Assembly (NCBI GenBank): GCA_017437905.1 | Contig: JAFRWY010000011.1 | Coordinates: forward strand, 1 to 33,303 | Origin: Eubacterium sp. | GTDB taxonomy: Bacteria > Bacillota > Clostridia > Lachnospirales > Lachnospiraceae | Direction of reading: 5' to 3' | DNA length: 33,303 bases | Shown here: piece after piece, positions 1-33,303 of the stretch | Layout of the letters: every line of letters starts with the position of its first letter | Position numbering within the stretch: position 1 is the first letter of the stretch | Program-made: the position numbers and the translations under genes | The notes under the pieces: model-generated | The model's input: the letters and a program-made list of their open reading frames with translations, nothing else | Database searches by the model: none | What the model was told of the DNA's origin: nothing

Positions 1-1
1 T

Positions 2-682
2 GACTATAAGCCTTCGTTGAATCAGGATGAACTTAACCATCAGGTAGAAGCCGTGATAACGGATATGATCAACGACGAGAGCTTTATGGGATATATCAAA
101 GACAAGCTGGGTGAGAAGGTTGATGTCAGTGAGTTGGAAGGGGAAAGAGAAAAGCTACGAGGACAGCTTCGACAATTATCCGGAGCGAAGAAGAAACTGA
201 CAGATATGCTGGATGCCCTGGACGTAAACGACAGGCACTATGATCGAAAGTATCAGGATATGCAGGACAGATTGGATAACCTGTACGATAAGATTGGCGA
301 GATAGAGGATGCTATTCAAGATGTGACAGAGAAGATCAATGCAGTATACGGAGAGCATCTGACAGCACAGGAACTTTACAAGGTCTTAGAGAATTTTGAT
401 GATATTTACTTCAAAATGTCTGACCTTGAAAAGAAGGAGTTCTACCAGAACTTCATAGAAAGCATAACAATATATCCGGACAAAAAGACAAACGAGCGCA
501 TCATAGATGAGATCGACTTCAAGTTCCCGATATATTATGATGGTCAAGAGGGTAGGGCAATTCGGTTGCTCAACGAAACAACAGTCGACCCGGTTGTGAC
601 GTTTCGATCACGATCGGACGATATCCTCTGCGTACTGCATCCTCCACCAGATTGTGGCCGGTTGAACCGGCATCAACGATAA
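2..682 (+). CDS. Large serine recombinase, C-terminal part (5' end outside window)
   Basis: This is the C-terminal portion of a TnpX/Tn4451-type large serine recombinase, the enzyme class that excises and integrates mobile elements by double-strand exchange through a Ser-DNA intermediate. The reading frame is open to the window start, so the catalytic resolvase domain and zinc-ribbon region lie upstream. Visible are a long charged coiled coil (about positions 120-350: LEGEREKL, QDMQDRLDNLYDKIGEIED), then the family's closing block (EFYQNFIESITIYPD, IDFKFPIYYDG). The family usually ends soon after a hydrophobic strand; here that point is ETTVDPVV, followed by about 25 atypical residues (FRSRSDDILCVLHPPP...). 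Those residues are the antisense of the first codons of the ATP-grasp gene at 570-695. I infer that the tail was acquired from the host target at integration. Family call is confident; activity cannot be judged. Confidence 0.88.
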   Translation, partial: DYKPSLNQDELNHQVEAVITDMINDESFMGYIKDKLGEKVDVSELEGEREKLRGQLRQLSGAKKKLTDMLDALDVNDRHYDRKYQDMQDRLDNLYDKIGEIEDAIQDVTEKINAVYGEHLTAQELYKVLENFDDIYFKMSDLEKKEFYQNFIESITIYPDKKTNERIIDEIDFKFPIYYDGQEGRAIRLLNETTVDPVVTFRSRSDDILCVLHPPPDCGRLNRHQR

Positions 683-695
683 TTATATTTTCCAT
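570..695 (-). pseudogene. 5' fragment of an ATP-grasp-type gene, cut by element insertion
   Basis: Reading leftward from ATG at 695-693 gives a 41-residue frame that begins MENIIIVDAGSTG and continues NLVEDAVRRGYRPIVIE, then loses sense (TSQPGRLLFR) and stops at 570. This resembles the N-terminal Rossmann-like start of ATP-grasp ligases (carbamoyl-phosphate synthase/biotin-carboxylase-like, in which a nucleotide-fold strand is followed by VEDAVRRGY). It has a proper start: AAGGGGG about 5 bases before the ATG, and a TATAAT -10 about 37 bases upstream. The resemblance stops at about 600-605, where the opposite strand becomes recognisable serine recombinase. I infer that the mobile element integrated into codons ~30-35 of this gene and that the rest of the gene lies beyond the other end of the element. 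The family assignment rests on about 30 residues from memory. Confidence 0.62.
580..612. other. Probable attachment site / element-chromosome junction
   Basis: The serine recombinase frame loses family likeness after VDPVV (about 600), and the minus-strand ATP-grasp start loses likeness after IVIE (about 603). The crossover core must therefore lie in this interval, which includes the palindromic GTCGAC at 584-589. Only one end of the element is in the window, so the exact core dinucleotide cannot be read. Serine integrases are known to exchange at short, often non-repeated cores inside conserved host genes. Confidence 0.55.
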
Positions 696-731
696 AAGTG
701 CCCCCTTCTTGTTGTAATTCTTCATTTCTTT

Positions 732-760
732 ATTATACCCCGATTTGCTAGTCCGGGAAA
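732..760 (-). promoter_or_regulatory. Promoter of the interrupted ATP-grasp gene
   Basis: On the minus strand a perfect TATAAT lies at 737-732 with a weak -35 (TTTCCC, 760-755) at 17-base spacing. Transcription would begin near 725, about 30 bases before the ATG at 695. It faces away from the MutS-like gene promoter at 771-798, so the gap is a divergent promoter region. If active it would now transcribe into the mobile element, antisense to the recombinase gene. Confidence 0.5.
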
Positions 761-770
761 TGTTTTTTGT

Positions 771-798
771 TTGGTTTCGGTGATGAAAGTGCTATAAT
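771..798 (+). promoter_or_regulatory. Promoter of the MutS-like gene
   Basis: TTGGTT (771-776) and a perfect TATAAT (793-798) are separated by 16 bases. The predicted start near 805 gives a leader of about 35 bases to the ATG at 841. Confidence 0.55.
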
Positions 799-840
799 TA
801 GCTATATCTGTATTCCATTGAAGATGCAGGAGGAACGCAT

Positions 841-2559
841 ATGAAAGGTGATAAGGAATTCAGTCTTCTCTATCCGAGAGGGAGGGAAGTGGAGTTTAAG
901 AAGCTGGAAGACGGCGCATTTCATGACCTGGGTCTTGATGTGATCAGCAAGGCGGTCGCTTCCGAGCCAAAGGAACAGGAGATCGTTGCGGAGATTTTGT
1001 CCTTCATGACCCCGGATCCGGATGTTACGAACTACAGGCAGGATGTTTTTGAGGATATCAAACGCCTTCCGGATATCCGGGCGAAGATTGCCGAACTGTT
1101 TGAGAAGATCGAGTTCAACAGGCAATTCGGTGTGATCAGGAAATCCAAAGACGAGGTGGAAGGACTCTGGCTGCTGATGCACCGGCTGGGTCAGTATCGG
1201 GATTACATCACCTGCGTCGATGCTTTGAAGGAGTGTCTTGGCGATGGCAGGATCAGGTCGAAGGGGCTGAAGGATTTCAAAGCCTATATCGATGAAGTTT
1301 ATGCGGATGCACATTTCAATGAGCTTAAGAAGGATCTGGAGAGGCTTTCGATGGAAACCTCAGAGATCCAGAGTGTGACCCTGGGGCTGAATCTGAACAG
1401 CAGGCTGGAAGCAGTCAGTATGGGAATCGTCTCCATAAATAACAAGCCCTTTAAAAAGGCCGGTATCGTAAGCAGTTTCGCAGAGGGGATCAGCCATGAC
1501 AAGATCAAGGACGGAAATGAATGGAACGGGGATATGCATTACCGTCTTGTGGATAAAAACAGCGGCCCGGGCATAGGCGGATTCATTTCGGACATGTTGA
1601 AGCATACCAATCCGGTGCTGGCCTCGACCGGGACAAGTACCATGACATCGATTCCGAAGGGAGACGGACTTGCCAATGCGCCTGCTCAGTTCGATGTCAC
1701 GCTCAATAAGATGCTGGACTCTATCGCCAAGAGTTTAAGACGGACCCTGGATAAATATGCGGATATGGCGCTCTATCATATCGCGGATGTGATCCCGGAA
1801 TTCGTATACTACATCCGGTTTGCGGAGTTTATGACGGGACTTGAAGAGAAGGGCTTCCGGTTTACGAAGGCCGGAGCGGTCATCGGCGGTGACAACCGGA
1901 TGCGTGCGAAGGGCTTTTATAACTTCAAACTCGCGCTGAATCTTTCGGATCCAAAGGAACTTGTGGAAAATGATCTGGACTTCGATTCCGATCATACGAT
2001 CTATATTCTTACAGGTGCCAACCGGGGTGGAAAGACCACTTCGACGCAGGCGGTGGGACTTTTATTTGCTCTGGCCCAGGGGGGCATTCCCGTTCCCGCG
2101 GATTCATTTGAATTTGAACCTGTGGATTGCATATTTACACATTTTCCTGCCGATGAAGATAAGACCGTGAATCTGGGGCGCCTTGGTGAAGAGTGTATCC
2201 GTTTCAAGGAGATCTTCAATCATGCCACGGCAGAAAGCCTTATTCTTATGAATGAGACCTTCTCCACAACCTCCTTTGAGGAGGGCTATTACATTGCCTG
2301 TGATGCGATCCGGGCGCTGCTTACCAGGAACGTGAGAACGATCTATAACACTCATATGCATAAGCTCGGAGTGGATGCGGAAGAATTCTCCAAAAATTTC
2401 GGACAGAAAGCCTCATCACTGATTGTGAAAAGTGATGGCGGAAACAGGTCCTTCAAGCTTGCGGTTGCGCCTCCGGAAGGTTCCTCCTATGCATCCGATA
2501 TTGCAAAAAAATACGGTGTGACATACGACATTCTTGTTGGAGAAAAGAACATGAAGTGA
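841..2559 (+). CDS. MutS-family ATPase without mismatch-recognition domain
   Basis: The 572-residue protein has the C-terminal MutS ATPase (domain V) preceded by a helical lever/core region; there is no N-terminal mismatch-binding domain, so this is a MutS-like protein rather than mismatch-repair MutS. Walker A is GANRGGKTT (about residues 398-406, MutS usually has GPNMGGKS). The Walker B region is LILMNETFSTT (about 470-480), with Asn in place of the usual first Asp but the catalytic Glu kept. The signature-like segment FPADEDKTVNLGRLGEE and the downstream THMHKL switch His are present. The start is fixed by AGGAGG 7-8 bases before ATG 841. The tail after GVTYDIL (VGEKNMK) is short and may have been altered at the edge of the decayed region that follows. 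Substrate is unknown; relatives are annotated as DNA mismatch repair or recombination-related ATPases. Confidence 0.85.
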   Translation: MKGDKEFSLLYPRGREVEFKKLEDGAFHDLGLDVISKAVASEPKEQEIVAEILSFMTPDPDVTNYRQDVFEDIKRLPDIRAKIAELFEKIEFNRQFGVIRKSKDEVEGLWLLMHRLGQYRDYITCVDALKECLGDGRIRSKGLKDFKAYIDEVYADAHFNELKKDLERLSMETSEIQSVTLGLNLNSRLEAVSMGIVSINNKPFKKAGIVSSFAEGISHDKIKDGNEWNGDMHYRLVDKNSGPGIGGFISDMLKHTNPVLASTGTSTMTSIPKGDGLANAPAQFDVTLNKMLDSIAKSLRRTLDKYADMALYHIADVIPEFVYYIRFAEFMTGLEEKGFRFTKAGAVIGGDNRMRAKGFYNFKLALNLSDPKELVENDLDFDSDHTIYILTGANRGGKTTSTQAVGLLFALAQGGIPVPADSFEFEPVDCIFTHFPADEDKTVNLGRLGEECIRFKEIFNHATAESLILMNETFSTTSFEEGYYIACDAIRALLTRNVRTIYNTHMHKLGVDAEEFSKNFGQKASSLIVKSDGGNRSFKLAVAPPEGSSYASDIAKKYGVTYDILVGEKNMK

Positions 2560-24323: not shown

Positions 24324-24391
24324 TCCCGGAAAGCATAGGGGTAAAGGAAGAAACAGGCGGCGCCGGGCAGCGCCGGAGAAGGAGGATTGTT

Positions 24392-25396
24392 ATGAGCCTT
24401 GGATGTTATGATATTTCACTGGATGCGTTTCCCCGCCTTGCAGGCGAGGAAAGCGATGATGCGCGGATCGGGAGGGCAGTGGCGGCCTGCGAGCGGGGCG
24501 TGCTGTATATCCCCAAAGGGGTTTACCGGATCTGCAGTATGCTGGAGATAAGGAACTGCTGTTCCCTGCTCATGCATAAATCCGCCGTGCTGAAGGCGGA
24601 TGCGGAAATGCCTTTTGTTCTGTTCTATGATGCGGAAGCATCGTACCCGGATATCGTTGAGAAGGACGGACATATCGTTCCTTCGGAGGATCCGGATGCG
24701 GAGGACTGGAATCTCTTCGTGACCGGCGGTGTGATCGATGGTGCGGGACTTGCCAGCTGCATGTGTCTGAACAGTTTCAAGCATTTCACCATGCGGGATA
24801 CCTCTTTCCGGAACGGAAAGCGTTACGGACTCAGGATCGAGGAGGCGGGAAGCAGCTGGACCTACGAGCTGGTGGCACAGAACCTGTATCTCAAATGTAC
24901 CCTGCCGGGTCTTGCGGGAAATGCGGGGATCAGCAGCAACGGCGGAGACAGCCATTTTATCGACTGTATCGTTGTGGATTACACAAAGGGCTTCGAACTT
25001 TTAGGCGGCGGTTCCAACCGGCTGACCCGATGCCATGTATGGGGCGGTCCCATTCCTCCGCCGGAGGAGGGAGCGCTTCCGGAAATGCTGAAGGATTCCG
25101 TGAATTATGTCCTCAGCTCCTATGATGTGATCCTGACGGACTGCTATGCGGATACCGGAATGACCGGATATCTGGTGACGGAGAATGCAAGACTGATCGG
25201 ATGCAGTTATTTTAACAATTACACATACCTGATGGATGATGTGACGGTGATCGACCACCGCAGCGGAAGCCTGCTGGTGACGGACGGACTGTTCCGGAAG
25301 ACCAGTCCCCATGCCACGCTGTACCGGGGAGACGGGAAGGATGTGGGATGGAGGGATAATGTGCTGGACGGGGATTTCCCCGATGTACCGTTTTAA
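24392..25396 (+). CDS. Right-handed beta-helix (pectate-lyase-like) protein
   Basis: The 334-residue protein begins YDISLDAFPRLAGEESDDAR, then GVLYIPKGVYRI, the entry of the pectate_lyase_3 type of parallel beta-helix proteins (as in polygalacturonases and phage tail spikes). Coil-like repeats follow (FVTGGVIDGAGLASCMCLNS, then KHFTMRDTSFRNG; GLRIEEAGSS; NLYLKC; DSHFIDCIVVDY; GSNRLTRCHVWGG; ENARLIGCSYFNN). Catalytic Asp residues of GH28 (NTD, DD, GHG) were not identified, so enzymatic activity is uncertain; carbohydrate binding or lyase activity is possible. No signal peptide is visible, which is odd for an extracellular pectinase. AAGGAGG is 6 bases before ATG 24392; a longer frame from 24281 overlaps the reductase gene and is not used. 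A terminator follows at 25440. Confidence 0.7.
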   Translation: MSLGCYDISLDAFPRLAGEESDDARIGRAVAACERGVLYIPKGVYRICSMLEIRNCCSLLMHKSAVLKADAEMPFVLFYDAEASYPDIVEKDGHIVPSEDPDAEDWNLFVTGGVIDGAGLASCMCLNSFKHFTMRDTSFRNGKRYGLRIEEAGSSWTYELVAQNLYLKCTLPGLAGNAGISSNGGDSHFIDCIVVDYTKGFELLGGGSNRLTRCHVWGGPIPPPEEGALPEMLKDSVNYVLSSYDVILTDCYADTGMTGYLVTENARLIGCSYFNNYTYLMDDVTVIDHRSGSLLVTDGLFRKTSPHATLYRGDGKDVGWRDNVLDGDFPDVPF

Positions 25397-31374: not shown

Positions 31375-33303
31375 TTGGGCTCCGGGCTTAGTATGACAAG
31401 TGTGAATAAAATCAAGGAGCTTGCCGAGGCGAGAGAATACAGCCTGGCGGTCGATATCCTGGATTCCCAGGACCTTGAGAAATCGCTGAATCCGCAGTTC
31501 CTAAGGGTCTGCGGAGAGGTGTACGAGAATGTGGGACGCATATGTGATGCCAGAAATATGTACGTGAAGGCACACATTATGGGACCGCAGTCGAACCGGA
31601 TCATTTACTCGCTGATCACATTTTATCTGAAACAGGGATACTTCGGTCTCGCTGAGCAGTACCGGGATCAGTTTATCGCCACGGCGATGGGGCAGGAACG
31701 GAAGAACATCGAGTATGTGATGAAGAAGGCCAAAGGCGCAAAGCCGGAGGAACTGCGGGAGTACCTGGATCCGTATTATGTTAACTCCATGGATGAGGAG
31801 TGGAGCTTCGAACTCTTCCTTCTCCTTACGCTGATGAAGGCGGACACGGAGATGCTGGCGGCGGATTATCGGGCTACCTTCAGGAGAAGCGACCGCAGTG
31901 AGATCATCCGGGAGGTTCTGAACGGAAAGCAGTCTCCGGAGGAACTCTTCTCCGTATTCGCGAAGAGCGAACGTCCGGACAATGATCCGGAACAGGAAGA
32001 GATCCGGGAACTGGAGAAGGAACAGCTCCGGAAGGATTGGAAGCGGCTCCACCCGGAGAGCGTCCAGGACGATATGCCGGAGGTTACGGTTGATACACCG
32101 GAGGATCTGAATGATTCGGATGCGGAGATCCTGGAGGAACCGGATACAGAGAAGAAGTTTAAATCCTTCCTGAAGAAGACCTTCCGTAAGAAGAAGGAGA
32201 ATACGGAGGAAGGATCGGAAGAGAATACGGAGCAGGCCCCTGAAGCTTCGAAAAATGCGGAGGGGAAGGAACCTGCAGAGGGAACGGGCGAAGCAACGGA
32301 GACTTCCGAAGAGAAGCCGGCCGGGGCGGAAGCGGTGGAACCGGCCGCGGTGGCGGAAGAACCGAAGCCGGAGGAGGAAACGGTCCAGCTTGAGGAAGCG
32401 GAAACTCTCGCTCCTTCAGCGGAAGCACCTGCAGGACCGGCGGAGGCGGATCCGGATCATGATCATTTGGAGGATATGCTCAGCATAGACTTCGATGACG
32501 GCTTTGCAGCCGAATCTGAAATGGCCTCGGATCTGGACGAGGAAGAAGAAACGGTATATCAGAATCCGCTGGATCTGATCAATCTCGGGGCTCTTTACAG
32601 AGAAGAGATTGCGGAAGCGGTTGAGACGAAGGAAGAACCGGTGGCTGAGGAAGCGGTTGAAGAGACAGTAACGGAGCCTGAACCGGTGGAAGAACCGATA
32701 GAGGAGCCGATAGTTGAAGAAGCAGCGGAAGAGGCGGTAACGGAGCCTGAACCGGTGGCTGAGGAAGTAGTGGAAGAGGCGGTAACGGAGCCTGAACCGG
32801 TGGAAGAACCGATAGAGGAGCCGATAGCGGAAGAAGCAGCGGAAGAGGCGGTAACGGAGCCTGAACCGATCAAGGAACCGATGGCTGAGGAAGCGGTTGA
32901 AGAGGCGGTAACGGAGCCTGAACCGGTAGAAGAACCGGCGGCTGAAGAAGCGGCGGAACAACCGGCAGTGCTCATCGAAGAAGAGCCGGAGGTATTCGAG
33001 GACGAAGAGCCGATCTCATGGGAGGAGCCCGCAGTCCTGATCGAGGAAGAACCGGAAGCATTCGAAGACGAAGTGCCGATTTCCTGGGAAGAACCGGAAC
33101 CGGAGCCGATCGGGGAAGAACCGGAAGCAGAGCCGGAACCGGAGCCGACCGGGGAAGAACCGGAAGCAGAACCGGAACCGGAGCCCATCGAGGAAGAACC
33201 GGAAGCAGAGCCGGAACCGGAGCCGAACGGGGACGAACCGGAAGCAGAACCGGAACCGGAGCCGATCGGGGAAGAACCGGAAGCAGAGCCGGAACCGGAG
33301 CCA
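31375..33303 (+). CDS. TPR-like protein with a long Glu/Pro repeat tail (3' end outside window)
   Basis: The frame is open from 31375 to the window end (643 codons). TTG 31375 is preferred, because GAGGTGA lies 7-8 bases before it; ATG 31393 has no ribosome binding site. Residues 1-150 are helical with TPR/Sel1-like spacing (KIKELAEAREYSLAVDILDS, FLRVCGEVYENVGRICDARN, YSLITFYLKQGYFGLAEQYR). A basic patch follows at about 260-275 (KFKSFLKKTFRKKKEN), then an acidic, Pro-rich region. From about 32626 this holds imperfect repeats of TEPEP(V/I)xEE, and from 33115 exact-length 13-residue repeats (EEPEAEPEPEPxG). Codon periodicity is preserved throughout, so this is coding. No signal peptide or membrane helix is visible. 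Relatives and function are unknown; low-complexity acidic tails of this kind occur in scaffold or surface proteins. Confidence 0.75.
   Translation, partial: MGSGLSMTSVNKIKELAEAREYSLAVDILDSQDLEKSLNPQFLRVCGEVYENVGRICDARNMYVKAHIMGPQSNRIIYSLITFYLKQGYFGLAEQYRDQFIATAMGQERKNIEYVMKKAKGAKPEELREYLDPYYVNSMDEEWSFELFLLLTLMKADTEMLAADYRATFRRSDRSEIIREVLNGKQSPEELFSVFAKSERPDNDPEQEEIRELEKEQLRKDWKRLHPESVQDDMPEVTVDTPEDLNDSDAEILEEPDTEKKFKSFLKKTFRKKKENTEEGSEENTEQAPEASKNAEGKEPAEGTGEATETSEEKPAGAEAVEPAAVAEEPKPEEETVQLEEAETLAPSAEAPAGPAEADPDHDHLEDMLSIDFDDGFAAESEMASDLDEEEETVYQNPLDLINLGALYREEIAEAVETKEEPVAEEAVEETVTEPEPVEEPIEEPIVEEAAEEAVTEPEPVAEEVVEEAVTEPEPVEEPIEEPIAEEAAEEAVTEPEPIKEPMAEEAVEEAVTEPEPVEEPAAEEAAEQPAVLIEEEPEVFEDEEPISWEEPAVLIEEEPEAFEDEVPISWEEPEPEPIGEEPEAEPEPEPTGEEPEAEPEPEPIEEEPEAEPEPEPNGDEPEAEPEPEPIGEEPEAEPEPEP
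33115..33303 (+). repeat. 39-bp in-frame tandem repeats
   Basis: The unit encodes EEPEAEPEPEPxG (13 residues); about 4.8 copies are in the window with variation at the last two residues (TG, IE, NG, IG) and one E-to-D change. Unit length is constant and in frame, so copy-number change would not shift the frame. The array continues past the window end. Confidence 0.85.

Follow-up and report, generated by a model that had tools for sequence, protein, structure and literature searches.

Contig C5 of the source Eubacterium sp. genome, G000 (3.09 Mb in 133 contigs, with an estimated completeness of 100 and contamination of 4.12%), constitutes the entire 33303-base stretch of DNA analyzed here (the window). 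Because the window is an entire contig, the recombinase frame at its left end is cut by the contig start. The 3′ part of this large serine recombinase gene adjoins, on the opposite strand, the 5′ end of an ATP-grasp gene, beyond which lie the remnant of a regulator gene and a MutS-like gene. The features are listed below; the label AraC/GyrI, like the labels ABC permease, portal, and SPFH used later, comes from reading the sequences and is not a family-search assignment.

2 to 588, plus strand: 3′ portion of a large serine recombinase gene whose frame is still open where the contig starts; judged by relatives, the second recombinase of a tandem pair, adjoining the attachment site
587 to 588, no strand: GA crossover dinucleotide and element/host boundary, placed by the relatives' GA and the end of DNA identity
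589 to 682, plus strand: read-through tail added to the recombinase frame, putatively encoded by host DNA; it has 31 residues if the core-containing codon is included, and its stop lies at 680 to 682
589 to 695, minus strand: 5′ end of the ATP-grasp gene, codons 1 to 35 plus bases 1 and 2 of codon 36, assigned by homologs
570 to 587, minus strand: element-side end of the truncated ATP-grasp frame, coding for RLLFR and a stop, from the open reading frame list and the crossover position
696 to 781, minus strand: region upstream of the ATP-grasp gene, with AAGGGGG at 707 to 701 and a TATAAT-like sequence at 737 to 732, as read from the sequence
782 to 843, plus strand: what remains of an AraC/GyrI-type regulator gene, its 3′ end, from tblastn and blastn
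841 to 2559, plus strand: MutS-like gene (MutS domain V; PF00488, E value of 4.9e-21), taken as the chromosomal anchor on its same-genus identity

The minus-strand frame that starts at 695 reads MENIIIVDAGSTGHNLVEDAVRRGYRPIVIETSQPG and matches the first residues of full-length (~560-aa) ATP-grasp proteins. Its best matches were a protein encoded on contig C131 of the source genome (63% identity over 35 aa; E value of 5.7e-10, with one genome searched) and one in G163 (58%; E value of 8.1e-9). Homologs in frames of ~560 to 570 aa occur on C131, in G036 and G074 of the same genus, and in G163, G276, and G390, which represent three further genera of the family, so the possibility raised in the initial annotation that this frame might lack homologs does not apply. 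The C131 protein matches the Pfam families GARS_A and ATP-grasp_4, while the 51-aa fragment itself has no Pfam match. Clear similarity to ATP-grasp proteins extends to about residue 31; the crossover described below falls in codons 36/37. Host codons are therefore 1 to 36, with codon 36 sharing one base with the core, in a truncated frame of 41 codons. Of the expression signals proposed for this frame, the sequence resembling a ribosome binding site is indeed present (AAGGGGG, 707 to 701, minus strand), but an intact promoter is not confirmed: TATAAT lies at 737 to 732 on the minus strand, but a consensus scan of 540 to 900 returned no minus-strand sigma-70 site.

Two features elsewhere in the window were also observed. 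A frame at 2611 to 3549 matches the end of the PPDK_N domain (PF01326) without the full gene and has the look of a decayed gene, and a gene with a long Glu-Pro repeat region at 31375 to 33303 reaches the contig end.

Relatives of the recombinase and type of element

The recombinase frame was searched in genome contigs (65 loci) and viral contigs (44 loci). Its closest relatives are on the IMG/VR contigs L139 to L142, with 97% amino acid identity over 198 to 199 residues and 94 to 95% DNA identity, followed at 89 to 91% amino acid identity by L143 to L145 and by L074 from Catenibacillus scindens, which is 91% identical to the window piece. The 97% homolog at L142:8894-10594 has Resolvase, Recombinase, and Zn_ribbon_recom domains (PF00239, PF07508, and PF13408); the window's partial recombinase, whose N-terminal part lies outside the window, has no Resolvase, Recombinase, or zinc-ribbon Pfam match of its own. 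On the 5′ side of this homolog, L142 encodes a protein with weak matches to tape-measure repeats, a holin (PF05105), an amidase (PF01510), and another large serine recombinase, and the gene order is the same in L140 and L144, as judged from frames only. Window positions 1 to 588 are one end of a mobile element that, given this gene order in its relatives, is most likely a tailed temperate phage; the structural and lysis genes are those seen beside the relatives' recombinases, and the contig start cuts the window at its own recombinase. Record titles name Lachnospiraceae for 27 of the 65 genome-contig loci, and the family appears to be found mostly in gut Clostridia.

Other traces of this recombinase family are present in the source genome. 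Contig C86 carries a second large serine recombinase of 581 aa near its end (L064; 9937 to 11682, minus strand), in which the GA occupies the same position and is followed by the tail VETIVLLGN, with an SPFH-like gene farther on; this is probably another element of the same family. Contig C112 holds a degraded relic of a third such recombinase at 24338 to 25130 (L041/L038).

Position of the crossover

DNA alignments of the window to eight close relatives (L139 to L145 and L074; 90 to 98% amino acid identity) end at window positions 587 to 597, and the matches past 588 amount to a few bases, which we took as chance. Over the 120 bases ending at 588 there is a single mismatch to each of L139 to L142 and three to five to L143 to L145 and L074, and directly after the GA at 587 to 588 the window and its 97% relatives part at once. 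Since the shared DNA runs up to this GA, we placed the crossover there. The same position was then read across the family from 110 aligned loci (the 109 search loci and the C86 recombinase), of which 95 reached residue 194 or beyond and 15 were dropped; a few alignments that fell one or two codons short were carried on to this position without gaps. GA occupies the codon matching 587 to 588 in 94 of the 95, the remaining one (L143) having GC.

The element-end boundary is thus real and exact at GA 587 to 588, with the GA core observed at one element end, the one in the window. The initial annotation had placed the boundary at about 580 to 612, a range that contains it and is now narrowed to a dinucleotide. 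Its description of a serine recombinase 3′ end abutting an opposite-strand ATP-grasp frame is borne out by the 97% relatives on one side and the full-length homologs on the other, and the element does end within the first ATP-grasp codons, of which 36 rather than about 32 belong to the gene.

Usual target of the recombinase family

Among the relatives with GA, 86 had at least 24 bases of flank, and 8 with shorter flanks were left out of scoring, as was L143. The 86 flanks comprise 79 distinct ones; in translation, 78 of the 79 begin with E-[TVCSAL]-[VICL], a loosely drawn class defined by this analysis, and 58 with E-T-[VIC], these counts being of sequences and not of independent events, since some viral and genomic contigs may represent one element. 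The sole exception to the loose class is L090, which reads D-S-L. Since the relatives carry motif-bearing flanks after the GA, the recombinase gene, as read from these sequences, runs through its own attachment site at its 3′ end and takes its tail from the target.

For one of the 97% relatives, L140, the target itself is known to be a rumA-like gene; the targets of the other relatives are known by the tail motif only. The source genome has both a rumA gene (on C133) and a rumA-like gene (on C70), and near their ends both read ETVCLLSNRKPD. The C70 gene shows no interruption and still has its own downstream gene after it, and the host flank of L140 matches the C70 gene end plus that downstream gene at 72% over 670 bases, which places the 97% relative in the equivalent gene elsewhere. 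At the window locus there is no insertion in rumA, the flank being the ATP-grasp gene.

To compare these sites we used a position matrix built from the 79 flanks, which covers only the half-site after the GA. The C70 and C133 right half-sites are identical and score 14.3, higher than all 5252 GA sites in window positions 801 to 33303. The window flank scores -14.1, below the lowest of the 79 relatives (-9.0 in leave-one-out scoring), a value that 1144 of the 5252 arbitrary GA sites equal or exceed. Past the GA, the insertion site has no recognizable likeness to the usual target. The low score fits a secondary site and also leaves room for a chimera.

The C133 rumA site is less straightforward than that of C70. 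The C133 gene is identical to the L140 flank for ~50 bases past the GA, with portal homology beginning ~40 bases further; the first 400 positions of this contig (L281) contain rumA and, after a brief intervening stretch, a phage portal gene cut by the contig end. In most related IMG/VR phages, the portal is preceded by more phage DNA than on C133. This site may be occupied by another copy, a damaged remnant, or misassembled, and since it runs into phage-like DNA, only C70 was counted as plainly free. Two IMG/VR contigs (3300013414_001122 and 3300036471_000043) carry both a related recombinase and a C133-type portal, so the C133 portal piece could belong to the window element's kind of phage. 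We considered the C133 rumA/portal junction as the other element end and rejected it, since the partner of a simple insertion should carry the rest of the ATP-grasp gene. An identical run, GAGACTGTGTGCCTCTTGAGCAACCGAAAACC, is found at the ends of different rumA-like genes in L140 (from 7903), L281, L282, and L167, as if the elements also spread this tail DNA among themselves.

The ATP-grasp gene and the MutS-like neighborhood

The ATP-grasp gene is an accessory gene. Homologs at an E value of ≤0.01 were found in 6 of the 61 genomes of the genus sample, and matches at an E value of ≤1e-4 in 4 of 397 sampled genomes of the family, the source genome being included in all of these numbers. When the paralog protein was searched against the source genome, it matched only C131, C44, and the window piece (E ≤ 0.01), and the rest of the interrupted gene was not found in that assembly. 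Nor was an empty site found in an ATP-grasp gene with the window's sequence. At the DNA level, positions 585 to 799 matched 41 of 392 genomes of the order at an E value of ≤0.01; the best match outside the source genome was in G566 (74% over 80 bases), and the others, of ~20 to 50 bases, were taken as chance. Copies of 585 to 845 were absent from plasmids and phages at an E value of ≤1e-5, and a 24-base exact pattern had no match in viral contigs.

The MutS-like gene is 79 to 90% identical to its counterparts in four same-genus genomes. Altogether, 9 of the 36 same-genus relatives searched carry it at 49 to 90% identity over most of its length, and the others have weaker MutS-type matches or none. 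In seven of the nine (G024, G011, G022, G002, G009, G013, and G035), an AraC/GyrI-type gene lies directly upstream on the same strand, with an internal deletion in G022. The upstream gene of G019 resembles an ABC permease, with frames read by eye, and an AraC/GyrI match is lacking in G027. At no locus of the nine did any of three ATP-grasp queries match within ~1.3 to 5.3 kb upstream of the MutS-like gene. An ATP-grasp gene divergent from the MutS-like gene in element-free relatives, as the initial annotation predicted, is therefore found at 0 of 9 loci within these upstream stretches, against 7 of 9 for the AraC/GyrI-type gene, and with relatives lacking it here the simple picture of an empty site fails.

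What remains of the AraC/GyrI-type gene in the window is its last 15 to 20 codons (tblastn, 65% over 20 aa at 782 to 841, E value of 0.001). DNA identity of this remnant is firm only from 800 (blastn, 93% to G024 over 800 to 900), which leaves a second break, overlooked in the initial annotation, at ~782 to 800, where the remnant begins. The rest of the gene, searched in the source genome, gave only eight distant matches, the best at 33%. Since relatives have the whole gene upstream and only a remnant is present here, the stretch from 589 to ~799, which holds the ATP-grasp 5′ end with its leader, appears to occupy the place of most of that gene; the ATP-grasp 5′ end, too, has been acquired or rearranged at this locus. 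The AraC/GyrI-type gene may have been lost either before or together with the insertion of the element. A second crossover by the same integrase near 800 was considered and rejected: the intact G024 site scores only -3.2, a value reached by 127 of the 5252 GA sites, and the window does not keep that half-site.

Origin of the junction

We consider it likely that a tailed-phage-like element integrated at a secondary site, the GA at codons 36/37 of an accessory ATP-grasp gene. A phage with two tandem large serine recombinases would have made a single site-specific crossover at this GA. Such an integration would swap the 3′ tail of the recombinase gene for host DNA, and at usual sites the new tail would again be E-T-V-like; here, the antisense strand of the ATP-grasp gene would supply an unrelated tail of ~30 residues, while the ATP-grasp gene would be cut to a 41-codon frame. 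The identity of the element as a phage would follow from its relatives, the other element end would carry the rest of a previously functional ATP-grasp gene, and the ATP-grasp locus would have arrived separately, in an event that cost the AraC/GyrI-type gene most of its length. A DNA search of the source genome with the first 10 kb of L142 gave recombinase pieces only, in C86 and C112, and since neither the other element end nor the rest of the ATP-grasp gene was found, we infer the insertion itself from one junction. Against this explanation stand the low score of the flank, the failure to find a second junction, the position of the junction, 588 bases from a contig end, and the fragmentation (133 contigs) and contamination (4.12%) of the assembly.

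These same weaknesses would suit an assembly or library chimera that joined an element end to an unrelated chromosomal contig: the contig starts within the recombinase, there is no second junction, the flank does not resemble the usual target, and the assembly is fragmented. Indeed, a window flank scoring below all 79 relatives, together with the empty canonical site on C70, points to a secondary site or, less likely, to a chimera. Yet the break lands on the very base pair at which the family crosses over, and after the GA the window reads CCC where 48 of the 79 relatives read GAC, which would leave an assembler no long overlap by which to join the two without spanning reads. We therefore hold a chimera to be unlikely. 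A later deletion or rearrangement that brought the ATP-grasp 5′ end up to an element integrated at a usual site is in keeping with a rearranged neighborhood in which only the last codons of the AraC/GyrI-type gene are left, but such a deletion would need to stop on the crossover itself, and no usual flank remains; we judge it very unlikely. The proposal in the initial annotation that the ATP-grasp gene is the normal, conserved target of the integrase and the ancestral divergent neighbor of the MutS-like gene has in its favor that the boundary does fall within the first 36 codons. It is largely refuted by the flanks of the relatives (78 of 79 with the E-[TVCSAL]-[VICL] motif), by the MutS-like loci (0 of 9 with an ATP-grasp match in the upstream stretch searched), and by the rarity of homologs (6 of 61 genus genomes), and we regard it as highly improbable.

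With insertion at a secondary site as the preferred explanation, the locus yields a boundary at base-pair resolution, a target rule, and a candidate natural secondary-site insertion for this recombinase family. It also cautions that a gene fragment beside an integrase need be neither its preferred site nor an ancestral neighbor. Since the recombinase tail comes from the landing DNA, landing outside the E-T-V-x-L-L-S code gives a foreign tail, and it is conceivable, though in our estimation rather unlikely, that an off-target landing carries a built-in penalty, with the foreign tail of ~30 residues blocking excision and locking the element in place. If the tail does matter for excision, such a penalty would explain the motif in 78 of 79 distinct flanks.

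Comparison with known serine recombinase systems

A close parallel is with the rumA-targeting single serine integrases of streptococcal ICEs, which are described as having the att site inside the integrase gene and exchanging 3′ ends reciprocally with the target (PMC4701971); IMEs in rumA have also been mentioned (PMC5704250). As in those integrases, the att site of the window recombinase lies in the 3′ end of its gene, with a target-encoded tail. Unlike the streptococcal ICEs as described there, the relatives of the window element are phages with tandem recombinases, the comparison being one of described features, and the window site, unlike the reported rumA insertions, lies antisense to the 5′ end of an ATP-grasp gene (PMC4701971). 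Among the literature titles listed, none describes this phage family inserted at rumA-like sites or within an ATP-grasp gene.

A GA core is also known from TndX of Tn5397, for which a central GA is reported always to be present in the target, with preferred sites in one host and no obvious preference in Bacillus subtilis apart from the central GA (PMC4430133). Compared by description, the window enzyme is likewise a large serine recombinase with a GA core, whereas Tn5397 is a conjugative transposon and prefers a target that encodes a Fic domain (PMC4430133). Multitargeting large serine recombinases, a clade that is reported to include TndX-like enzymes, have close orthologs that enter several unrelated genes; again compared by description, the relatives of the window recombinase differ from these in keeping the tail motif at nearly all sites (PMC10083194).

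Insertion away from the usual site has precedents as well. Four serine-integrase elements at secondary sites are reported in the study of the streptococcal elements (PMC4701971), and the PhiBT1 integrase is reported to use pseudo-attB sites in Nocardia, where the canonical attB is absent (PMC5937489). The window element resembles PhiBT1 in that a phage serine integrase would have acted at a noncanonical site, and it differs from the reported situation in Nocardia in that at least one canonical site, that of C70, is present and uninterrupted in the source assembly (PMC5937489). Off-target insertion is a known kind of event, and the individual case described here is new.
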